Shown: positions 7,072 to 20,101 of the stretch, piece by piece
Layout of the letters: each line of letters starts with the position of its first letter
How positions within the stretch are numbered: position 1 is the first letter of the stretch
NCBI RefSeq assembly: GCF_029910235.1
Contig: NZ_CP112879.1
Coordinates: 62,001 to 126,000, forward strand
From: Pseudanabaena galeata CCNP1313
GTDB lineage: Bacteria; Cyanobacteriota; Cyanobacteriia; Pseudanabaenales; Pseudanabaenaceae
DNA: 64,000 nucleotides
Direction of reading: 5' to 3'
Position numbers and translations under genes: made by a program
The notes under the pieces: generated by a model
Database searches by the model: none
What the model was told of the DNA's origin: nothing
Seen by the model: only the letters and a program-made list of their open reading frames with translations

Positions 7072-8486
7072 ACACCCATCTATTATTTCGCCGTAGCCGT
7101 ACTCGTCTCGCACTTTGGTATGCGGGGGTGATGGCAGTAATTTTGAGTTTGTCGGGATTTGGTATGTATCGCTTTCTGATTCAATCCAATTGGGAAGCGA
7201 TGGAACGGGAAATGGAATCGATCGCAGGGACTTTGCACGATAGTTTAGAACCGATGTTACCTGCTTCTGAAGAACCAACCGCAATTTTACGGCGGATTTT
7301 GCCAGAACTCTGTTTAGTAGACCAGCCTTGTAATGTCAGTCCTACTCTAATTCAACGGCATACTACTGGCATTAGCGATCGCAGTACATATTACATCCGT
7401 CTCTTCAATTATCAAGGTAAACTAATCGCCTTTTCCCCCAGTCAGATACTTAGAGAATTACCTTCAAGTTTATCTGATCATCCTTGGCAAACTTTTCAAA
7501 GTGCTAATGGAGTCCGTTATCATCAGTTCACGATTATTCTCCATAGCGATGATGCCAAGAGTCATCAGAGCCAACAACATAAAGTCAAAACTTCTTGGGG
7601 CTATTTGCAAATTGGGCGCACCTTAGAACCCTTTGATGCAGAAGTAAAGCGAATCAAAATAATTTTGGCGATTGGGTTGCCGATCGCGCTGATTTTAATC
7701 GCTATTTCTAGTTGGTGGCTATCTAAACTAGCAATGCAACCGATTTACAAATCCTATCAACAACAGCAACAGTTCACCGCCAATGCTGCCCATGAATTGC
7801 GATCGCCCCTCGCCAGTCTCCTTGCTACTGTCGAAGCAATCTTACGAGTACCACAAGCTAATCTCGCAGATACGCAAACTATGCTCTACAAAGTAGAAAA
7901 GCAGGGAAGGCGCTTGAGTAATTTAATTGCTGACCTACTGCTGCTGTCTAGTCTTGAGCAAAATTCATCTCCAAAAAAATTTCAATCCTGCTGTTTGAAT
8001 GATTTAGTCAGCGACTTGACCGAAGAAATGTCAGAACTTGCTACTGCATCGGATATTCACTTAACTAGTCAAGTTCCTTCTATGGAAATCTATGTACTTG
8101 GCAATGAATCACAACTTTATCGACTGGTATCAAATCTGATTGCGAATGCAATTCAGTACAGTCCTGCTCAAGGATCAGTGCATATCAGTTTAGAAGTCCA
8201 AGACCACAATGCTGTTATCGCGGTGAAAGATACAGGGATTGGCATTCCTAAGGCTGAGCAAAATCGAATTTTTGATCGCTTCTATCGAGTTGATGGCGAT
8301 CGTTCTCGCAAAACGGGAGGGACGGGTTTAGGCTTGGCGATCGCTCAGGCGATCGTGCATCATCACCAAGGTCAAATTACTGTCAAAAGCGATCGCAGTC
8401 AGGGCAGTTTATTTATGATTCACTTACCATGCTTTAAGCACTCACCAACAGCGCTGTTCCATACATCACGGCTAGACCCAAACTAA
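7068..8486 (+). CDS. nrsS: Sensor histidine kinase, NrsS-like
   Basis: A membrane-bound kinase with helices at about residues 15-38 and 198-216 enclosing a 160-residue periplasmic sensor domain, which has a Cys pair near residues 82-88 (CLVDQPC) and several His residues. The dimerisation box FTANAAHELRSPLAS puts the phospho-accepting His at about residue 242. The ATPase domain shows an N box (LVSNLIANAIQYS), DTGIGIP and GGTGLGLAIA. It should sense periplasmic metal and phosphorylate NrsR. The last 53 bp overlap, tail to tail, with the ZIP transporter gene on the other strand. Confidence 0.88.
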   Translation: MNTHLLFRRSRTRLALWYAGVMAVILSLSGFGMYRFLIQSNWEAMEREMESIAGTLHDSLEPMLPASEEPTAILRRILPELCLVDQPCNVSPTLIQRHTTGISDRSTYYIRLFNYQGKLIAFSPSQILRELPSSLSDHPWQTFQSANGVRYHQFTIILHSDDAKSHQSQQHKVKTSWGYLQIGRTLEPFDAEVKRIKIILAIGLPIALILIAISSWWLSKLAMQPIYKSYQQQQQFTANAAHELRSPLASLLATVEAILRVPQANLADTQTMLYKVEKQGRRLSNLIADLLLLSSLEQNSSPKKFQSCCLNDLVSDLTEEMSELATASDIHLTSQVPSMEIYVLGNESQLYRLVSNLIANAIQYSPAQGSVHISLEVQDHNAVIAVKDTGIGIPKAEQNRIFDRFYRVDGDRSRKTGGTGLGLAIAQAIVHHHQGQITVKSDRSQGSLFMIHLPCFKHSPTALFHTSRLDPN

Positions 8487-9609
8487 ATCCAGCCAAACTT
8501 GATTTAGACAACCACGAACCACCCTGCTTTTGGGCAGTGCGAGTTAGATATGACCCAACCTCGACAATTACTTGTAACACGGCTCCTGCTCCAATACTCA
8601 AAAACAGCACGGCAAAAATCGGCATAAACGCGAATGCTCCGATCCAAGTGCCGATCACCGCAGGTAACCCCGCTAAAGCGACTAAACCAATCAGAGTTCT
8701 GAGTTTTGGGCGCAGGTCAATGAGCGGAGCTGCAATGCCAATTCCTTCAGTAATATTGTGGAGCGTAAAACCTATGACAAGCAGAGATCCTAGAGCCGCT
8801 TCCCCAACCGCAAAAGCAGCCCCGATCGCCAAGCCTTCTCCTAAATTGTGAATACCAATGCCTAAAGCCATGTATGTCGATAACTTAGTTCCTTCTGGAG
8901 CTTTACCAGCTCGTCTACCAATCATAAAGACTGTTAAGAAGCTAGCCGCAGTAATCAACCAAACCAGTGTACCGCCTGAAAAAGCTGTAGCGACTTTCGT
9001 TGCTTTCTCGATTGCTTCTAGAAGGGTATCAACAAACAAGAAACCCAACATACCGAGAGTCAGCGCCAATAGAAATTTCATGCCCTGACCACTCAGCGCT
9101 TTTAAAGCTGGGTAGAACATCATTCCCAAACCAACAGGGACAATACCGACATACAACCCTAATAAGGCAAAGCTCAACAAGCGATTGCCAGAAATCATGG
9201 GAGTTTGCACCGCGACTTCGATTTTATGCTCAAACGCTGCGCCCGTATTCGTCAACAAATTAATATGATGAGCTTCTCCTTCGACCCATTGATAAGGCAG
9301 CCGAATCCAAGCACTCGAAAGCCGAGGCAACTCACCTGCTGGATCTTGCGTAAATTGCCAATAGGCTCCATCGATTTGCACTTGAGCAATTTGCATCGGT
9401 TGTGAGCCATCAGCACGAACGGAAAGGGAAATGCCTGTCTCATCTAAAACTGTCTGTTCTACGGTGAGTTTTTCTACGGGTGGTGCAGAACTCTTCAACA
9501 GTGCTAGTGGATTTGTCGTTAGAAAAATACCAATTAATGCAGTAATCAAAACTAGGGGAAGAATCACCCAAAGCCAAGTATTTTGTTTTTGCAGTTTTTG
9601 CTCATTCAT
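8434..9609 (-). CDS. ZIP-family metal transporter with N-terminal extension
   Basis: The C-terminal two thirds are a ZIP permease. HNLGEG and HNITEG, with flanking small residues, are the two metal-binding helix motifs of transmembrane segments IV and V. The N-terminal 160 residues are unusual: one membrane anchor (WVILPLVLITALIGIFL) and then a soluble, probably periplasmic, beta-rich region (LSVRADGSQPMQIAQVQIDG, AYWQFTQDPAGE) before the first ZIP helix. The substrate may be Zn, Fe, Ni or Co; the sequence does not decide. Its ATG overlaps the stop of the multicopper oxidase gene (ATGA), so both are made together. Confidence 0.85.
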   Translation of the reverse strand: MNEQKLQKQNTWLWVILPLVLITALIGIFLTTNPLALLKSSAPPVEKLTVEQTVLDETGISLSVRADGSQPMQIAQVQIDGAYWQFTQDPAGELPRLSSAWIRLPYQWVEGEAHHINLLTNTGAAFEHKIEVAVQTPMISGNRLLSFALLGLYVGIVPVGLGMMFYPALKALSGQGMKFLLALTLGMLGFLFVDTLLEAIEKATKVATAFSGGTLVWLITAASFLTVFMIGRRAGKAPEGTKLSTYMALGIGIHNLGEGLAIGAAFAVGEAALGSLLVIGFTLHNITEGIGIAAPLIDLRPKLRTLIGLVALAGLPAVIGTWIGAFAFMPIFAVLFLSIGAGAVLQVIVEVGSYLTRTAQKQGGSWLSKSSLAGFSLGLAVMYGTALLVSA

Positions 9610-10703
9610 GCCATTACCTCAAAAGCAGACATCCAACCTAATTCGAGAAATTCAGACTGATGGGCATGGAACATATATTTTCCAGCCTCAAAGTCTTTAA
9701 AAGAAAACTCTAAAATGCCGCGCTGGGCTTGGATCATCGATACCGTATCGATTATGCGATGGGTCGGGGTAAGCGTTGTGCCGTGATCGTAGAAATCAAA
9801 GAAATTAGCGTGGAGATGAAAAGAATTGAGCGGGTCAAATTCAACCACATTGATCAGATAAATCCGAATTGGGCGATCGCGTTCAACCCGAATTGGACGC
9901 TTCATAAACTCGAAGGGAATCGTATTGATCGCATAGACTTCATTCTTCTCGTCAAAATTAGTGTCAAAAGCATTCATCACCATGACCAATTCCTGCCAAT
10001 TGGCATTTTCAGGCGTTCCTAGTTGCCGAGATTTCGCCACCGCTTCCTGTTCGAGATGCTTTTGAGGATCGGGGTCAACAATAAATGCTCCATACATTCC
10101 TTTATGCATATGGCGTTTAAATGGAACCGAGTGGCAGTGATATAAATGACAACCAAATGGTTTTGCCTCAAACTCATAGGTGACTTCCATCTCAGGAAAT
10201 GCTTCGAGTGTCCCCGCAATTCCATCTTGACGCGCTGAATGAATGCCGTGAAAGTGAATTGTGTGGGGATGAGATCCAGAATTCTTAAAATTGATCCGTA
10301 CGCGATCGCCCTCTGTGACTCGGATTGTTGGTCCAGGTACTCGCCCGTTATACGTCCAAGCTGGGTATTTTACCCCTGGGGCAATTTCAATTTCTTTTTC
10401 TTTTACAACAATGTCGTATTCTCGCAACGTTTGACCATTCGGCAACTGCGAGACTTTCCCCCCATCCCAATCGGTTAACATTTTGCGCGGGTCAAATCCA
10501 TTTTTAGTCGAATCAACCTCTCCGACCATCATGTTACCGCCATGCACCATGCCCGACTGGGACATATCCATCCCTTTCTGATTGCCCTTTGATAAGTCGG
10601 GGGATTGAGCAACCGCATTGGCAGGGAATAACTTACCGAAAAGAGTTCCAGCCCCTAGTAAGCCTGCTCCAAGGAGAGAGCGTCGAATTGGATTAGGTTC
10701 CAT
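9606..10703 (-). CDS. Two-domain multicopper oxidase, Tat-exported
   Basis: The N-terminus carries twin arginines (IRRSLLGAGLLGAG), suggesting Tat export of a folded copper enzyme, followed by a Met/His-rich linker (residues 40-60). Cupredoxin domain 1 shows HTIHFHGIHS (His150, His152) and HLYHCHSVPF followed by MHKGM, a His-Cys-His-Met type-1 copper set. Domain 2 shows SFHLHANFF and MFHAHQSEF, which should complete an inter-subunit copper cluster. The length of 365 residues fits two-domain laccase-like or nitrite-reductase-like enzymes. Metal oxidation coupled to the ZIP transporter encoded next is a reasonable inference. The physiological substrate is not shown by sequence. Confidence 0.83.
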   Translation of the reverse strand: MEPNPIRRSLLGAGLLGAGTLFGKLFPANAVAQSPDLSKGNQKGMDMSQSGMVHGGNMMVGEVDSTKNGFDPRKMLTDWDGGKVSQLPNGQTLREYDIVVKEKEIEIAPGVKYPAWTYNGRVPGPTIRVTEGDRVRINFKNSGSHPHTIHFHGIHSARQDGIAGTLEAFPEMEVTYEFEAKPFGCHLYHCHSVPFKRHMHKGMYGAFIVDPDPQKHLEQEAVAKSRQLGTPENANWQELVMVMNAFDTNFDEKNEVYAINTIPFEFMKRPIRVERDRPIRIYLINVVEFDPLNSFHLHANFFDFYDHGTTLTPTHRIIDTVSMIQAQRGILEFSFKDFEAGKYMFHAHQSEFLELGWMSAFEVMA

Positions 10704-12596: not shown

Positions 12597-12785
12597 TTAA
12601 TGACAACTCACTCCAAGTGTGTGATGTCGAAGCGAATGAACGGAGTCATGCACCGCAGGATAAGTTGTAAAGTAAACCGACCAAATTATTAGCGCCCACA
12701 AGACAACATATAAAACTGCTTGTACTTGCACTGACATAACGAACTGCTCAGTCCGCCACCATATTGTTTGAACGGAATTTTTCAT
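12597..12785 (-). CDS. cbtB: Cobalt transporter subunit CbtB-like
   Basis: A 62-residue protein with one membrane helix (VLYVVLWALIIWSVYF) and the His-rich C-terminus HDSVHSLRHHTLGVSCH that characterises CbtB. The ribosome site GAGGT lies six bases before the ATG (GCGAGGTACAAAATG on the minus strand), about 12 nt after the closing stem of a cobalamin riboswitch. CbtB proteins are predicted components of cobalt uptake controlled by vitamin B12. The family, the riboswitch and the length all agree. The usual partner CbtA is not recognised in the window. Confidence 0.88.
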   Translation of the reverse strand: MKNSVQTIWWRTEQFVMSVQVQAVLYVVLWALIIWSVYFTTYPAVHDSVHSLRHHTLGVSCH

Positions 12786-12809: not shown

Positions 12810-12955
12810 AGTTTGAAATTGCTCATTAGCGGGTGTCCTGACTCAAAAAGCTGATTGCTTTTATTACAGTTGCGGGACAGTGTTGGATTTGCACCAAACT
12901 TTCCCCGTCTCCTCTAGTGACTGTTCTTCACTAGAACTGATAAGCATTTCAAACT
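12810..12955 (-). promoter_or_regulatory. Cobalamin riboswitch
   Basis: Read on the minus strand, the segment contains the conserved core GGTGCAAATCCAACACTG, then TCCCGCAACTGTAA, and the B12 box AGTCAGGACACCCGC. The outer stem P1 is formed by AGTTTGAAAT at the 5' end (12955-12946) and ATTTCAAACT at the 3' end (12819-12810). A GTGAAGAACAGTCAC hairpin precedes the core. P1 ends about 12 nt before the ribosome site of cbtB, so control at translation initiation is plausible. It should repress the cbtB unit when cobalamin is plentiful. Confidence 0.93.
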
Positions 12956-13029
12956 ATACCAGCATGAGTAATGACTATCTTGTGGAAGGAAAAAACTTAA
13001 TGCTGCGTCTAAGGTGTATCTAAAGTTGA

Positions 13030-13099: not shown

Positions 13100-13957
13100 T
13101 TATGTGTGACTGTTTTTCTGAGAAACTTTTGGGGAAACCGTGTCAGGAAAACGCCGCCGCAATCCGTATAGCCAAACTAAACCAAAAATACCTAATGCGA
13201 TCGCCACAAGACTGATGACTTGGGCAGTACGAAGCGATCCAACCATCAGGCTATCTGTACGCAACCCTTCAATCCAAAAGCGCCCTAGACTATAGGCGAT
13301 CGCATAAGTCATGGTTAATGTCCCAGTTCTGATTTTGGGAAATCTGAAGAATAGAAACATCAAGATTGCAAACACACCCACATTCCAAAGCGATTCGTAC
13401 AGAAATGTGGGATGAAAGTATGATTCGCTTGCAAATTCTGGTGGGCGGCGATCAACGGGAATAAATAATTTCCAAGGAAGATCGGTCGGTCTGCCAAAAG
13501 CCTCAGAGTTAAAGAAATTGCCCCAACGTCCAATTGCTTGACCTAAAATCAGCGCAGGCATAACAATATCTGTCATTAACCATGCTGAGATTTTTTGGCG
13601 TTGGCAAAAAATAATTGTGACTATTGCACCGCCAATGATTGCGCCATGAATCGCGATGCCGCCTTCCCAAATTGCAAAAGCCTTATACCAAGGTTGATTT
13701 TGGAAGCGCTGCCATTCAAATAAAACATAGTATAGACGGGCGCAGGGAATAGCACCAACCACCAACCAAATTACGAGATTGCCGACTATATCTGGATCGA
13801 TACCACGTTTTTTTGCAAGTTTTTGGGCTAATAGTGTGCCGATAACAACTGCGGAGGCAATCAGCATTCCGTACCAACGGATCGAAAATGATCCGATTCC
13901 AAAGGCGATCGGACCTGGAGATGTAAACTCAAATGCAAATGGTAAGAAGTTAAGCAT
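13100..13957 (-). CDS. lgt: Prolipoprotein diacylglyceryl transferase
   Basis: The Lgt signature HGAIIGG is present near residue 110, followed by [17 protein letters not shown], in which the Arg and Asn residues belong to the catalytic signature of Lgt. A further signature, [15 protein letters not shown], is near residue 240, and about seven membrane helices are predicted. It transfers diacylglycerol from phosphatidylglycerol to the lipobox Cys of lipoproteins in the inner membrane. The ATG at 13957 ([11 protein letters not shown]) matches the normal family start; an upstream ATG at 14005 adds 16 unrelated residues. Finding this normally chromosomal, essential gene in a metal operon suggests a second copy serving operon-linked lipoproteins. 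The enzyme assignment is secure and the reason for its location is inferred. Confidence 0.93.
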
Positions 13958-14032
13958 TAGAAATGATGTTGTGTGAAGTTGAAACAAGAATCTATTCAAA
14001 AACAAAAATGTTGGTAACAGCTTTTTTGAGGG

Positions 14033-15073
14033 TTAATGATCAGGCAGCATATAAAGAAAGTTACGATCGCCTTGATAGCCTGACAAATCAGCAAGCTTTT
14101 GAAGTGTTTGCTCACCTTGATAAAACTTGCCATTGATATCCCATGTAGGTACTGTCTGAATCTTAGCTGCTTCGCATAGTTGAGGCTGGGCATTTTTACC
14201 ATCAGGAAGGCACTCAATCCAGTTCAATTCGGCTAAAGCTTCTTTGCCAAAAAGTTGCTTTTGTTTGTAGCAATGCGGACAGGTATAGAGAACATACATC
14301 TTTGCCCCGATTTGTTTGAGATGCTTAGCTAGGGCAATTTCGGCATTGCCTGAAGTTGTCGTAACTTCCCATCCAATTCCCTTTTTAGGTCTTGCTGTTG
14401 GTGTTTGGACAATTTGTTTTCCTGTGGCAGCATCAACGGGTAGAGTTACACTAGCGATCGGTTTATTCACACTTCCATAAACAACAAATGTCCCGACAAT
14501 TGTGAGAGTGGCGATGAGCGCACCTGTGAAGAATAATTTTCCGATATCTTCCCATTTACGACCGATGATAGAAAATACAAATAAACTAGTAGATAGAAGT
14601 GCAGAAGCGATGCAATAAATACAAGCGGCTTGAATTACAGTAACTAGCAAATAAATCAAGTAACCACTAAATATCATCATGGCAGTACCACCCATAAAGA
14701 GTAGTAATCCTGTCCAGTTATCTAGCTTGGTACGAAGTTCTTTTTGTTCTTGCTTAACCAGTAGAGGCGCGATCGCAAAAGCAATCATACTGGCATAACC
14801 CAAGCAACCAAATAGAGATAGTGGCAAGCCAAAAATTTTGGCATAGGGAGAGGTAAGCACAACATCACAGGCATTAGTTGGACAAGCCACTGACGATTGG
14901 GAAAAACTAACAAAGGTTAGATAGGCAGTAATAACCACTCCTAACGTGGAAATACCAGCCATAATCGGGCGTTGATATCGCTGTAACCAACTATGCGATC
15001 GCTGTTGCTTGCGGAGTTCCTTGACTTTTTGAGCAGTGGATGAGATGGTCTCTTCAGGAATATTTTCGTTCAT
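14033..15073 (-). CDS. VKOR family protein fused to a thioredoxin-like domain
   Basis: The N-terminal half is a vitamin K epoxide reductase-type four-helix membrane domain. It has a Cys pair in ACPTNACDVVLTSPYA and the quinone-proximal CxxC motif in AACIYCIASALLS. The C-terminal half (residues about 240-346) is a thioredoxin-like domain with the active site YTCPHC. Such fusions are typical of cyanobacteria, where they oxidise protein thiols in the lumen or periplasm and pass electrons to quinone. It lies 32 bp after the TPR gene on the same strand. Disulfide formation in exported proteins is known for the family; a link to metal tolerance is inferred from the neighbours. Confidence 0.92.
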   Translation of the reverse strand: MNENIPEETISSTAQKVKELRKQQRSHSWLQRYQRPIMAGISTLGVVITAYLTFVSFSQSSVACPTNACDVVLTSPYAKIFGLPLSLFGCLGYASMIAFAIAPLLVKQEQKELRTKLDNWTGLLLFMGGTAMMIFSGYLIYLLVTVIQAACIYCIASALLSTSLFVFSIIGRKWEDIGKLFFTGALIATLTIVGTFVVYGSVNKPIASVTLPVDAATGKQIVQTPTARPKKGIGWEVTTTSGNAEIALAKHLKQIGAKMYVLYTCPHCYKQKQLFGKEALAELNWIECLPDGKNAQPQLCEAAKIQTVPTWDINGKFYQGEQTLQKLADLSGYQGDRNFLYMLPDH

Positions 15074-15105
15074 GATTTTTAATTCGGATTTGACTGATAA
15101 ATTGA

Positions 15106-16176
15106 CTATTTGAGATCTTTAATGGCTGCTTGGACTTCATTTATAGCTTTAAGATCACCTAGGCGGGTATATAGTTCTTCTGCTCGTTGAAATGACTGCA
15201 CAGCTTCTTGGTTACGCTTTTGTTGTGCCAAGATTTTACCCATATTAAAGTGGGCAAGGGCATCTTCAGGATTGTTTTTGATGATTTCACGGTAGGTAAT
15301 GATTGCCATAGAAAGTTTATTTTGCCCAATATATAAAGTGGCGATTACTTGTTGTATAAGTGGATTGGGTTTAAGTTTGGCAGCAGTTTTATAAAAACCA
15401 ATAGCTTCATCTAATTTGCCTTGTGTAGTTAGAGCTTGGGCGATCATTAGATTTGTTTCAAGATGACGAGGATTAATTTTAAGAATCTGCTGATACCTTG
15501 CGATCGCTTCTTCTGTTGTAATCTTTGCTCGGTCTAAACTTACGCTAGTAAATAAAACATCTGGATTGGTGGGAGCAAGGCGGACAGCTTTGGCATAGAT
15601 ATCTGAAGCGGCTTGGATGTTCTGCTGCTTTTCAAAAACATGACCTAGATCAAGATATGCTTTCACATTATTTGGAGCAATGGTAATCAGTTGTTGATAT
15701 GCTCTAACCGCATTTGCAAGATCATTTTGACTATCGAAAATATAGCCAATACTTTGATAAGCATCAATATTTTTAGGATCGATGGCTATCACGCGCTGAT
15801 AAAATCCCAATGCTTCTGTAAAGTTTTTCTGCTGAGTGTATGTGAAACCTAGACCAATTAGAGATTTTACATCTTTATTATCTAAACGAATGGCTTGTTG
15901 AAATGCAGCGATCGCCTCTGGGAACTTACTTTGTTGGATAAACAGGAAGCCAATACTTGCTTGAATTTTGGCGTTTTTAGATTCGATGGTGGCGGCTAGT
16001 TGATAGTCAGCTAATGCACTAGCTATATCCTTTTTATCCCATAACTCTTTACCATGTTTGACTAAATCTACAACACTAGGCTTAGTTTTATCTGATGTCG
16101 AGATTACGTGGGAAAATGCTGCTGTATTCCCAGAGATGAAAAACAATGAAAAAATAATGAATGTAAATTTGAACAT
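15106..16176 (-). CDS. Exported tetratricopeptide-repeat protein
   Basis: A signal peptide (MFKFTFIIFSLFFISGNTAAFS) is followed by about nine TPR units from residue 30 onward, with phrases such as IQASIGFLFIQQSKFPEAIAAFQQAIRLD and VKSLIGLGFTYTQQKNFTEAL in shorter repeated form. It probably acts as a scaffold in the periplasm or lumen. The ATG at 16176 is preferred because it begins the signal peptide and avoids overlap with the ATPase gene; an ATG at 16212 is also in frame. No enzymatic domain is visible and the partner is unknown. Confidence 0.8.
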   Translation of the reverse strand: MFKFTFIIFSLFFISGNTAAFSHVISTSDKTKPSVVDLVKHGKELWDKKDIASALADYQLAATIESKNAKIQASIGFLFIQQSKFPEAIAAFQQAIRLDNKDVKSLIGLGFTYTQQKNFTEALGFYQRVIAIDPKNIDAYQSIGYIFDSQNDLANAVRAYQQLITIAPNNVKAYLDLGHVFEKQQNIQAASDIYAKAVRLAPTNPDVLFTSVSLDRAKITTEEAIARYQQILKINPRHLETNLMIAQALTTQGKLDEAIGFYKTAAKLKPNPLIQQVIATLYIGQNKLSMAIITYREIIKNNPEDALAHFNMGKILAQQKRNQEAVQSFQRAEELYTRLGDLKAINEVQAAIKDLK

Positions 16177-16189
16177 AATTAGATGAAAT

Positions 16190-18154
16190 TTATTTGAGAA
16201 CTCTAGTTGCATTGGCGATCGCTAACAAAGCCATACCAACATCAGCGAAAATCGCTTCCCACATATTTGCTACACCAAAGGAACCAAGCACAATGAATAA
16301 TCCTTTGATACCCATAGCTAGGTAGATATTTTGGAGGACGATACGGTGCGTTTTTTGTCCGATGGCGATCGCTTCCGATACCTTAGAAGGAGCGTCAGTC
16401 ATCAGCACCACATCAGCAGTCTCAATCGCCGCATCAGAACCCAATCCACCCATCGCAATCCCCACATCAGATCTAGCGAGAACAGGTGCATCATTGATGC
16501 CATCCCCAACAAAAGCAACTTTCTCTCCCTTTTTGACATTTTTTAAGAGCTTATCGAGGACATCAACTTTTCCTTCAGGCAAGAGATCGGCGTAGTAGCT
16601 ATTTACGCCCAAACGTCCTGCAATAATCTTTGCCACACTGTCGCGATCACCTGTGAGCATTACCGTATGAATGCCCTGTTGTTTTAGAGATCGAATTGCT
16701 TGATCTGCATCATCTTTGAGTTCGTCAGCAATCTGAATATAGCCAGCATAAACTTGGTCAACTGCTAGATGGACAATTGTGCCTTGATTGGAAGGAATTG
16801 TGTAAGCAATTTTTTCGCGTTGTAAAAGACGTTCATTACCCGCAAAGACAGTTTGATTGCCAGTTTGATTGTTAATCTGCGATCGCACACCATGACCAGC
16901 AATCTCTTCAAACTCGCCCATGTCAGACAGATCAGGAGCTTTTCCATAAGCTTCCAGAATCGATTTGGCAACAGGATGATTCGATCTCGCTTCTACTTTT
17001 GCGGCAATCTCTAGTAGTTCTGATTCTGTAAATCCATTGCTAGGAGCAATCTTAGCTACCTTAAAGTTGCCTTGAGTTAAAGTTCCTGTTTTATCAAAAG
17101 CAACTACTTTCACCGCCGCTAAGGTATCGAGGAAAGTGGAACCTTTAACCAAGATACCGCGCTTTGCTGCACCGCCAACACCACCAAAGTATCCTAATGG
17201 AATACTAATCACCAAACCACAAGGACAGGAAATCACCAAAATAACTAAGGCGCGATAGAACCATTCGGCTTGAGTTGCTCCTTGAATTACTAATGGTGGA
17301 ATCGTTGCCACTGCTAAAGAGATGAATACCACAATCGGCGTATAGATGCGGGCAAACTGCGTAATAAATTTCTCGGTTTCCGCCTTCTGACTACTGGCAT
17401 TTTCGACTAAATCGAGAATCTTGGCGATTGAAGACTCACCATAAACCTTAGTCACGCGCACAGTTAGGTATCCAGTCTCATTGATCATGCCTGATAAAAC
17501 CATATCACCAATGCCAACAGCACGAGGAACGGATTCTCCAGTCAGTGCCGCCGTATTTAGTTGAGCATTACCTGCAATGACTTCACCATCAAGGGGGATT
17601 TTCTCTCCTGCTTTGACGATGATTACTTCACCGACAGATACAGATTCTGGAGAAATTTGTTCCACACCAGACTCGGTTTGACGAAAAGCGACATCGGGAC
17701 GGACTTCTAAAAGAGATTTGATTGATCGCCGTGAATTGCCGATCGCCATGTCTTGAAACAATTCACCGATTTTGTAAAACAGCATGACCGCAACTGCTTC
17801 AGGCAATTTGTGAATGGCAAATGCGCCTACTGTAGCGATCGTCATTAAGAAATTCTCATCAAAGAAGCGACCACGCAAAATATTCCTTCCCGCAACTTTA
17901 AGAACGCTCCATCCACTCAATAAGTAGGCAACTGTGAATATCGCATGATCTACTACCCAATAGTTCATCTCATGTAATCGCTCTTCAAAAATGAGACCAA
18001 TTGTAAATAGCACAATTGTCGCTGCAATTGTAATTACCTCACCCTTAAGCCCTGAAGAATCAGCACCATTACCATGATCATGACTATGATCATGGTCGTG
18101 ATCATGCTTCTTAGAATTTTTAGGCTCATCATCACCACAACAACTTTTTGCCAT
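16190..18154 (-). CDS. P1B-type heavy-metal ATPase, Zn/Co/Cd exporter type
   Basis: A 654-residue cation pump. Diagnostic sites are CPC at residues 310-312 in the membrane, TGES near 205, DKTGTLT at 354-360, the SNHPVAKSI HP locus and GDGINDAPVLARSDVGIAMG. There is no N-terminal HMA domain; instead there is CC followed by a run of His and Asp (HDHDHDHSHDHG), likely to gather Zn or Co. A CPC motif plus control by a SmtB-type repressor points to divalent ions and resembles Synechocystis ZiaA. It exports metal from the cytoplasm at the cost of ATP. The exact metal cannot be read from the sequence. Confidence 0.92.
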   Translation of the reverse strand: MAKSCCGDDEPKNSKKHDHDHDHSHDHGNGADSSGLKGEVITIAATIVLFTIGLIFEERLHEMNYWVVDHAIFTVAYLLSGWSVLKVAGRNILRGRFFDENFLMTIATVGAFAIHKLPEAVAVMLFYKIGELFQDMAIGNSRRSIKSLLEVRPDVAFRQTESGVEQISPESVSVGEVIIVKAGEKIPLDGEVIAGNAQLNTAALTGESVPRAVGIGDMVLSGMINETGYLTVRVTKVYGESSIAKILDLVENASSQKAETEKFITQFARIYTPIVVFISLAVATIPPLVIQGATQAEWFYRALVILVISCPCGLVISIPLGYFGGVGGAAKRGILVKGSTFLDTLAAVKVVAFDKTGTLTQGNFKVAKIAPSNGFTESELLEIAAKVEARSNHPVAKSILEAYGKAPDLSDMGEFEEIAGHGVRSQINNQTGNQTVFAGNERLLQREKIAYTIPSNQGTIVHLAVDQVYAGYIQIADELKDDADQAIRSLKQQGIHTVMLTGDRDSVAKIIAGRLGVNSYYADLLPEGKVDVLDKLLKNVKKGEKVAFVGDGINDAPVLARSDVGIAMGGLGSDAAIETADVVLMTDAPSKVSEAIAIGQKTHRIVLQNIYLAMGIKGLFIVLGSFGVANMWEAIFADVGMALLAIANATRVLK

Positions 18155-18170
18155 ACATACCTCTGAATAC

Positions 18171-18186
18171 TTGAATAACTATTCAA
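18171..18186. promoter_or_regulatory. Candidate SmtB-type operator before the ATPase gene
   Basis: TTGAATAACTATTCAA is a 16-bp palindrome (seven-base arms around AC) located 17 bp upstream of the ATPase start and downstream of the repressor stop. SmtB/ZiaR family operators are inverted repeats with TGAA/TTCA arms, which this matches. It implies that the ATPase and the genes behind it have a promoter of their own, repressed without metal. Binding is inferred. Confidence 0.5.
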
Positions 18187-18224
18187 TAGATTAGCAGTAA
18201 ATTTAATCAATAAATTTTTTAGGA

Positions 18225-18614
18225 TTAAACTTCTTGTAAATGCTCGGCAACTTCTCGATAGAGGTTGACAATATGCTCGTCTGCAAGGCTGTAATAAACA
18301 TTACGCCCTTCTTTACGGTACGTGACTAATCTCGCCGATCGCAAAATTCGCAGTTGATGAGACACCGCAGAATCACTCATTTTCATGGCTACAGCCAAAT
18401 CACAAACACATAGTTCTTGTCCTGCGAGAGCAGAGATGAGGCGCAATCGATGAGGGTCGGATAACACTGCAAAAAAATCTGCCATCTGTTGTGCTTGTTT
18501 GGGCGAGAATATCTCAGACTGACAAGCAACCACCTTATCTAGATGCACCAGATGAATCTCACAGGTTGGTGCATCATCAGTTTTTATAGGCTGTGTTTTT
18601 GACTTGGCTGGCAT
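18225..18614 (-). CDS. SmtB/ZiaR-type metal-sensing repressor (ArsR family)
   Basis: A 129-residue winged-helix repressor. The recognition region reads [25 protein letters not shown], with the alpha-3 Cys pair (C69, C71) used by ZiaR/CadC-like sensors. The alpha-5 zinc site is intact: D112, H114, H125, E128, the same spacing as D104, H106, H117, E120 of SmtB. Both sensor sites appear complete, so derepression by Zn, and perhaps Cd or Co, is expected. It lies 70 bp upstream of the P-type ATPase on the same strand, with palindromic operator candidates both before its own start and before the ATPase. Confidence 0.93.
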
Positions 18615-18625
18615 GGCAATAAAAA

Positions 18626-18642
18626 TTGATAATCATTTTCAA
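18626..18642. promoter_or_regulatory. Candidate operator upstream of the repressor gene
   Basis: TTGATAATCATTTTCAA is a 17-bp palindrome with one mismatched pair, 11 bp before the repressor ATG. It may be an autoregulatory SmtB-type site. It also resembles Zur/Fur boxes (the AT-rich TGATAAT half), so control by a Fur-family regulator is an alternative. Confidence 0.4.
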
Positions 18643-19516: not shown

Positions 19517-20101
19517 ATGAAAACATCCTCAAACGATGGGATGAGAGTTACCTATACTCCTCATCGCAATGGTTCTAAATTCTTCAACAGAATTCAAGAC
19601 CCACAGGTAGCAGCCTTAACCGCCACGATTGTCGGAATCGTCATTGCCTTCTCCTGTTCTAGAAGCATGTACCTGACCGCATTACTTGCCTTTATTGGCT
19701 TGCTGTTGGCTTTTCCCAAGACATTATTGATGCTGTATGGCAAAGTTGAGCAGCATTTGCGAAATCACAAGTACAGCCCTGTTTTATTGCTAGGAACGGG
19801 AATTGGCTTCCTGATCGGATTACTGTTGATTTTTACAATCGAGCCAGCCCAAGCCCAGTTTTTCAACAAAACCCAGACATGGTTAGGTGGTGCGATTCCT
19901 GGAATAGATGCATCTTTAGTTGCCTTAATCTTTAACGTGCTGCGAGCATTATTTGTGATTTATCTAGGGATTGGATTAGTAAAAGTGATCCAATCGGCTA
20001 GAAATGACGATGATTGGCAGCAATTAGCGCGTACTCCTTTGATTCTGGTGGTGACAGTGACTATGGGAGACATCCTAGCCGCAGTTATTACTGGGGTTTA
20101 G
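19517..20101 (+). CDS. VirB2/TrbC-like pilin precursor
   Basis: A 194-residue protein with two N-terminal membrane helices, a third hydrophobic segment ending in a signal-peptidase-like site (TIEPAQAQFF), and two further hydrophobic helices in the mature part (ASLVALIFNVLRALFVIYLG and TPLILVVTVTMGDILAAVI). Two helices behind a cleavable leader are the hallmark of T4SS major pilins. It is the first gene of the transfer locus and lies just upstream of a VirB3-like gene, the usual order. The long N-terminal region before the leader is unusual. Assignment by topology and context, not by strong motif. Confidence 0.65.
   Translation: MKTSSNDGMRVTYTPHRNGSKFFNRIQDPQVAALTATIVGIVIAFSCSRSMYLTALLAFIGLLLAFPKTLLMLYGKVEQHLRNHKYSPVLLLGTGIGFLIGLLLIFTIEPAQAQFFNKTQTWLGGAIPGIDASLVALIFNVLRALFVIYLGIGLVKVIQSARNDDDWQQLARTPLILVVTVTMGDILAAVITGV

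Follow-up and report, generated by a model that had tools for sequence, protein, structure and literature searches.

The smtB-lgt gene cluster

The stretch of DNA analyzed here (referred to below as the window) comprises 64,000 nucleotides (nt), bases 62001-126000 of a 145,310-base contig (C6) of Pseudanabaena galeata CCNP1313, and contains a run of genes that joins a zinc-sensor repressor and a P1B-type ATPase to two enzymes of envelope biogenesis, a VKOR-thioredoxin fusion and the prolipoprotein diacylglyceryl transferase Lgt. The genome (5.84 Mb) is represented by six contigs; the one carrying this locus is probably a plasmid and is most closely related to Pseudanabaena plasmids and contigs. 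All five genes listed by the initial annotation are present, each on the minus strand, and its description of the gaps between them as short was borne out (70 nt between smtB and the ATPase gene, followed by 13, 32, and 75 nt, the last value with the lgt start at ATG 13957). The features of the locus, in window coordinates, are the following.

18627..18641, minus strand: Zur-type box TGAAAATGATTATCA, directly 5' of the smtB ATG; invariant in 8/8 loci
18225..18614, minus strand: smtB, ArsR/SmtB-family zinc sensor (PF01022; NF033788 above its cut-off; SmtB 1r1t)
18172..18186, minus strand: SmtB-type operator TTGAATAGTTATTCA in the smtB-ATPase gap; conserved in 8/8 loci
16190..18154, minus strand: P1B-2 type ATPase with a His-rich N-terminus, likely exporting Zn/Cd/Pb (TIGR01512; ZntA 4umv)
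15106..16176 (ATG 16176), minus strand: exported tetratricopeptide-repeat (TPR) protein of 356 aa without Cys (TPR families; hydrophobic N-terminus)
14033..15073, minus strand: VKOR-thioredoxin fusion, disulfide-forming enzyme (PF07884; Synechococcus VKOR 3kp9/4nv2)
13100..13957, minus strand: lgt, prolipoprotein diacylglyceryl transferase, second copy (TIGR00544; E. coli Lgt 5azb)
12811..12956, minus strand: cobalamin riboswitch (RF00174, 66 bits), the operon boundary, which opens the next unit (CbtB, p345)

The repressor was correctly described as a zinc sensor: its best solved relative is SmtB (1r1t; E 1e-34), it matches the ArsR/SmtB winged-helix family, and the Asp, His, His, and Glu residues of helix alpha-5 of SmtB, which we take to be the metal ligands, are kept in its aligned C-terminal D-x-H...H-x-x-E motif. 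The assignment of the second gene to the P1B ATPases also held and could be narrowed to the P1B-2 type, as the protein scores above the cut-off of the TIGR01512 cadmium family and, when aligned to ZntA (4umv), keeps the CPC motif and the membrane Lys and Asp residues that presumably determine selectivity in this type. Owing to these two properties, its cargo is likely to be Zn, Cd, or Pb rather than Co or Cu. No match to the HMA domain was found in this ATPase. The VKOR-thioredoxin protein aligns with both domains of the Synechococcus enzyme, with two CxxC pairs and further cysteines kept. Its downstream neighbor exceeds the TIGR00544 cut-off of 119 bits by a wide margin (263 bits) and, in the alignment to the E. 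coli enzyme, retains the conserved His and Arg residues of Lgt, presumably of functional importance. An alternative lgt start at TTG 14005 is unlikely, since locus L006 has an in-frame stop between this codon and the ATG. Chromosomal copies of both envelope genes, for which the initial annotation had proposed a search, do exist in the same genome and encode proteins 76% (Lgt) and 37% (VKOR) identical to the plasmid ones. Within ~9 kb of either chromosomal gene, there were no matches to the P1B ATPase, SmtB, or multicopper oxidase of the module.

Conservation of the cluster in Pseudanabaena

The smtB, ATPase, VKOR, and lgt genes follow each other in the same order at eight loci, found in six strains: the window, L005 and L007 (both from FACHB-1050), L006, L008, and L010 (all from O153), L009, and L018. 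Strain FACHB-1050 is labelled Phormidium tenue but falls in the same genus as the others. Synonymous and nonsynonymous divergence (dN/dS of 0.04-0.07 for VKOR and 0.11-0.18 for Lgt, with L010 left out) indicates strong purifying selection on both enzymes. In L010 (Pseudanabaena biceps O153), the VKOR gene is split into two pieces ~1.1 kb apart (L010:6561-8726), probably by an insertion. Another stretch from the same O153 scaffold as L008 (L016:8001-9271) carries a partial VKOR gene followed by an operon-type lgt, with no smtB in the stretch; it was included in the lgt tree and excluded from the eight loci.

The cluster is not uniform, and its variation bears on a simple explanation, namely, that VKOR and lgt are spare housekeeping genes that were placed by plasmid recombination behind a strong zinc-inducible promoter, hitchhike there, and contribute nothing to metal tolerance. 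The gene 3' of the ATPase gene varies, the interval up to VKOR being occupied by the TPR gene in the window, L005, and L007, by a methyltransferase gene in L018, and by only ~26-30 nt in L006 and L008. The ATPase itself has been swapped between otherwise similar loci: L006, L008, L009, L010, and L018 encode a different version, 62-64% identical to that of the window. Further, lgt has joined only in Pseudanabaena among the loci examined, apparently once, and the multicopper oxidase gene that precedes smtB in other Pseudanabaena loci is broken off in the window, where just its 3' end remains (~18720-18614), interrupted ~110 bases before smtB. On the other side, VKOR stays while its neighbors change and pairs with two different P1B types; it is under the strong selection noted above and clusters by context on its tree (see below), and plasmids of other phyla also have lgt in metal islands. 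We therefore consider hitchhiking an unlikely explanation overall, and a weaker one for VKOR than for lgt.

Several other genes accompany the cluster. On the 3' side of the riboswitch lies a CbtB-like gene (12597-12785, minus strand) followed by a gene for a 345-aa protein (p345); the riboswitch-CbtB-p345 order is also seen in L005 and L007, and CbtB and p345 are found near the module in L202, L206, and L211. Further along the minus strand (8434-10703), a multicopper oxidase gene (9606-10703) is followed by a ZIP/ZupT-like gene (8434-9609), a pair also found in L005, L007, L018, L174, and L208. Beside the module of strain ABRG5-3, a MerR-CbiC fusion, which we take to be CoaR-like, is encoded divergently from another P1B ATPase (L018:12955-14073 and 14156-16090).

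VKOR as a partner of metal-exporting ATPases

Among 72,556 plasmid records, 24 matched the VKOR of the window, 13 of them over at least 80%, and all 13 are cyanobacterial. The gene contexts were read for 11 of these 13 (H139 and H142 were left out; in H139, the match positions of the ATPase and VKOR adjoin). A P1B ATPase is encoded upstream on the same strand in 10 of the 11 contexts, directly in 8 (at distances of -4 to 75 nt) and with one gene between in 2; in the 11th, from Calothrix NIES-4105, an HlyD/RND-type adaptor takes the place of the P1B ATPase. The Chondrocystis and Stanieria plasmids have the order smtB-ATPase-VKOR-TPR, with a small gene on the opposite strand before the TPR gene in 2/3, and Gloeocapsa has ATPase-VKOR-TPR with smtB divergent. 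In Leptolyngbya, the run extends further, through genes for a cation exporter, a CAAX protease, and penicillin-binding protein 2 (PBP2). In Chroococcidiopsis, the gene that overlaps VKOR by 4 nt encodes an HMA-bearing P1B ATPase only 34% identical to that of the window. The pairing of VKOR with the ATPase on plasmids is not due to chance. The association was looser in a genome sample scored on the best four candidates per genome, where VKOR was found on the same strand within ~2 kb in 4 of 19 ZiaA-like ATPase regions and on the opposite strand in 1. An ~215-aa protein without a Pfam match is encoded between the ATPase and VKOR in three loci (L160:10301-10948, L163:12692-13354, and L202:8013-8660).

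The VKORs encoded next to ATPases also tend to be related. On a tree of 59 rows, the 24 ATPase-adjacent VKORs require 2 changes of context, compared with 19 after the labels were shuffled, a contrast that is inflated by near-copies; these 24 do not form one supported clade. On a tree of 49 rows, 15 adjacent rows stand together with one other (support 93/88). The label "not adjacent" for L053-L081 is based on a flank of ~1.5 kb, and L162 and L205 are near-copies with identical VKORs.

The exported TPR protein has near full-length relatives (26-29% identity, E 1e-41 to 1e-48) close to VKOR in L162, L163, L203, L204, L205, and L209. In a comparison confined to the opened loci, other TPR proteins scored far weaker. 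This protein could act as a periplasmic assembly partner, and its recurrence in six other loci, two of which are near-copies, indicates that a set of periplasmic partners exists and lends some weight to the idea that both enzymes serve to mature a dedicated metal-resistance client encoded on the plasmid, disulfide-bonded or lipid-anchored, for instance an RND adaptor. However, cysteine is absent from the TPR protein itself, and a simple in-house lipobox rule, checked on two positive controls and applied to 116 open reading frames (ORFs) that span the whole contig except for 2 kb, returned a single doubtful match, a membrane protein (19517-20101) that was rejected as a plasmid lipoprotein client. 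A stricter version of the scan gave zero matches, with a length limit that would miss the ZnuA of this genome. A dedicated client of this kind thus appears improbable, and the suggestion of the initial annotation that a metal-induced lipoprotein needs the two enzymes found no support.

Two putative zinc-sensor sites

The box TGAAAATGATTATCA before smtB differs by one mismatch from the perfect 7-1-7 palindrome TGATAATNATTATCA. The latter occurs at four sites in the same genome, beside genes for ZnuA, a COG0523 (cobW) protein, an OprB porin, and an FAD protein, and these neighbors make the set resemble a Zur regulon; with its one mismatch, the smtB box is thus shared with znuA and the COG0523 gene. 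Three Fur-family genes are found in the genome. Among the eight loci, the 32 nt immediately preceding the smtB start codon show no more than one difference from the window, despite synonymous divergence of smtB of up to 0.96. As single-mismatch sites alone are weak evidence, the case for a Zur box rests on its position and invariance. Outside Pseudanabaena, 15 loci, some of them closely related, were scanned upstream of smtB; the best Zur-like match reached 13/15 positions in L162, L163, L172, L204, L205, and L209, 12/15 in L173 and L175, 11/15 in L170 and L203, and 10/15 or less in L202, L206, L207, L208, and L211.

The second site, TTGAATAGTTATTCA, is of the TGAA-N6-TTCA type, which we take to be the operator consensus of the SmtB family, and is the sole exact match in the genome to the pattern searched. 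The 24-mer around it shows at most 2 changes across the 8/8 Pseudanabaena loci, and TGAA-N6-TTCA is also present in the smtB-ATPase gap of L204, L205, L207, L208, L209, and L162. No TGAA-N6-TTCA site that could serve autoregulation was found within 150 nt of smtB in the window, and SmtB-type matches within 2 mismatches elsewhere in the genome were no more numerous than in the reversed control. Such sites with one mismatch lie on C1 and C3; the one at G000:C3:101728-101742 precedes a histidine-kinase-like gene in a region that, judging from its ORFs, also contains an ArsR-like gene.

The presence of a Zur-type box at smtB and of an operator in the gap, together with a long hairpin followed by T's in the gap of L005 (L005:4673-4831; absent from the other seven loci), indicates that smtB probably has a promoter separate from that of the exporter run, which is the one correction to the otherwise confirmed observation of the initial annotation. 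Since smtB itself has a Zur-type box, two zinc sensors are probably involved, with Zur possibly acting over SmtB. The proposal of the initial annotation that the genes are placed under a metal sensor stands for the ATPase run, so far as can be told from the operator. A general promoter and terminator scan of the window was uninformative, with fewer sites than in shuffled sequences. In the VKOR-lgt interval, an AT-rich hairpin with a T-run is seen in several Pseudanabaena loci, with a fold energy over the first 55 nt of ~-7 to -14 kcal/mol in L005-L009, -4 in the window, and -2 in L018.

Operon-type lgt genes and lgt on other plasmids

Operon-type lgt genes were found in 4 of 23 Pseudanabaena genomes (G000, G004, G012, where it occurs twice, and G022); no chromosomal copy turned up in G004, a draft of 770 contigs. 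Their products form one clade (98/96) beside that of the chromosomal Pseudanabaena Lgts (96/96), which suggests that lgt was captured into the operon once. The 12 operon rows of this tree represent 9 distinct loci, with the duplicates L005/L023, L018/L024, and L009/L025. A metal-hardened form of Lgt was considered and rejected: Cys, His, and Met counts are not tellingly different between the 12 operon and 20 chromosomal rows.

Lgt matched 492 plasmid records, of which 20 were opened, hand-picked for different genera before their context was seen. These 20 are not independent, as the clusters of Lactococcus, Enterococcus, and Listeria appear related to one another. Judging from annotation, 14 of the 20 stretches contain a metal-resistance or metal-response gene; none was seen in the stretches of Leptolyngbya BL0902, Cytobacillus, Latilactobacillus curvatus, Cohnella, L. 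plantarum, and Deinococcus. In 12 of the 20 records, lgt has a multicopper oxidase no more than 10 kb away, with 3.8 expected from positions in the same records (P 5e-6); when Pseudanabaena is removed, this is so in 11 of 19 (P 2e-5). For these counts, second oxidase matches inside one gene were omitted, and two pieces of a broken ATPase of E. faecalis were treated as one. The stretch from a Phaeobacter plasmid brings together two L,D-transpeptidases, DsbB, a multicopper oxidase, lgt, and a Cu ATPase.

These contexts could also be read more generally, with metal thickening or remodeling the envelope and the island adding overall envelope capacity rather than thiol protection. PBP2 and the CAAX protease in the Leptolyngbya runs would fit such a role. 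It agrees poorly with VKOR, the most constant partner, which acts on thiols, and with the DsbB and two L,D-transpeptidases near lgt and the Cu ATPase in Phaeobacter; according to a commentary, copper inhibits L,D-transpeptidases via their Cys thiols (PMC6593411). We regard this explanation as very unlikely.

In a survey of second lgt copies (12 regions, one of them cut by a contig end), one of six other cyanobacterial genomes, G034, has one of the two lgt copies found in it ~5 kb from a multicopper oxidase match and ~24 kb from an ATPase-VKOR-TPR module (C2:661473-690263), and two others have an ArsR-type gene within ~7 kb.

A proposed link between zinc export and periplasmic thiol protection

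Judging from gene content and predicted sites, we give slightly better than even chances to the cluster being a mobile zinc/cadmium-resistance unit in which metal export is coupled to protecting the periplasm; the pump would then come with its own means of repair for the compartment into which it discharges metal. At low zinc, Zur would release its box, smtB would be expressed, and SmtB would shut off the exporter run. At high zinc, Zur would repress smtB, metal-loaded SmtB would leave its operator, and the run would be expressed. The ATPase would then move Zn or Cd into the periplasm, where these metals could seize the free thiols of newly exported proteins. The VKOR-thioredoxin fusion would convert paired thiols into disulfides and Lgt the single lipobox thiol into a thioether, so that the two enzymes would remove targets of the metal and offset the lost capacity of their housekeeping counterparts.

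This proposal is supported by the constant order in eight Pseudanabaena loci under strong purifying selection, by the P1B ATPase upstream of VKOR in 10 of 11 plasmid contexts and the clustering on the VKOR tree, by the two conserved zinc-sensor sites, by the multicopper oxidases near plasmid lgt genes, and by published data on copper and lipoproteins and on dsbA mutants. Copper is reported to impair lipoprotein acylation, yielding the same intermediates as inhibition of Lgt (PMC6538781), an effect that a commentary ascribes to the thiol of the +1 Cys (PMC6593411), and loss of DsbA is reported to render E. coli sensitive to Cd and Zn because both metals bind free thiols (PMC7598926). The initial annotation had offered two interpretations, and the one by which metal stress damages disulfides and lipoprotein maturation fits these published findings as well as the repeated occurrence of VKOR and lgt next to metal genes; its interpretation was thus supported in part.

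A number of observations weigh against the proposal. VKOR was not found in 14 of the 19 ZiaA-like ATPase regions (one of which, L169, ends at a contig edge), so the pump does not require it. The published lipoprotein defect concerns copper, not zinc. A Zur box with one mismatch is not rare by itself (5 such sites in the genome, compared with 3 sites in all for the reversed control) and is weak evidence for regulation, and Zur-like matches were at or below 12/15 in 9 of the 15 loci outside Pseudanabaena. The hairpin with its T-run between VKOR and lgt may lower lgt expression or cut transcription. The proximity of lgt to P-type ATPases on the 20 plasmids was not significant (9/20 within 10 kb, 5.8 expected, P 0.06; combined rank test [Fisher], P 0.10), and no P1B ATPase was found within ~9 kb of the second lgt copies of the six other cyanobacterial genomes. 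Lastly, no loss of Cys that would mark a hardened operon Lgt was seen in the 12 operon rows relative to the 20 chromosomal ones, making extra dosage the simpler idea.

Relation to known systems and significance

The closest counterpart of the regulator-pump pair is ziaR-ziaA of Synechocystis, which likewise combines an SmtB-family repressor with a ZiaA-like P1B ATPase; the Chondrocystis and Leptolyngbya plasmid relatives are in fact annotated as ziaR-ziaA. In Synechocystis, the two genes are divergent, whereas those of the window are in tandem, with a Zur-type box at smtB and the TPR, VKOR, and lgt genes following. The pbrABCD lead operon of Cupriavidus metallidurans is also a metal-regulated P1B ATPase operon with a lipoprotein-pathway enzyme, as PbrC is a predicted prelipoprotein signal peptidase (PMC3431237). 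It differs in having a MerR-type activator and a PbrB/PbrC fusion instead of Lgt, and the accessible part of that report names no VKOR; with its ArsR-type regulator and Lgt, the locus of the window is not a pbr-like operon. The tcr copper islands of Enterococcus are mobile metal islands with lgt, the latter reported as undetected in the copper-sensitive strains (PMC4511184). Such islands have lgt with DUF2933 and a multicopper oxidase in the stretches read, and differ in metal (copper), regulator (CopY), and host (Gram-positive), in an Lgt only ~40% identical, and in the lack of VKOR in those stretches. A parallel for Zur acting over an SmtB-family zinc-excess sensor is aztR of Anabaena, listed as a member of the Zur regulon (PMC6103462), beside which the seen portion of that paper mentions no envelope enzymes.

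Metal operons with lipoprotein-pathway genes (pbrC, and lgt in tcr islands) are already known. In a search covering few subscription journals, no publication on VKOR in a cyanobacterial metal operon was among the papers listed; one paper lists a VKOR in a plasmid-like region of Sulfobacillus with metal resistance (PMC6803676). Within the literature searched, two things look new: the SmtB-ATPase-VKOR(-TPR) module that recurs on cyanobacterial plasmids, and the variant of it that includes lgt and lies under a pair of zinc-sensor sites.

A broader and more tentative possibility, which we hold to be somewhat less than an even chance, is that metal islands across bacteria carry a "thiol-capping kit" (Lgt, VKOR, or DsbB, which take exposed thiols off exported proteins, with spare copies of further envelope enzymes open to possible poisoning by metal, namely L,D-transpeptidases and PBP2) co-regulated with the exporter, that efflux and periplasm repair evolve as one trait, and that a cyanobacterial VKOR lineage has become specialized for it. 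Descriptions of metal resistance usually center on pumping and binding. Should a genetic tie between the pump and thiol-capping enzymes hold, the periplasmic targets of Zn and Cd would become testable one by one, and the recurrence of "housekeeping" lgt genes in metal islands could be explained. The module also points to a group of VKORs, encoded on plasmids, for which clients could be looked for, and to a possible exporter circuit with two sensors, Zur over SmtB.

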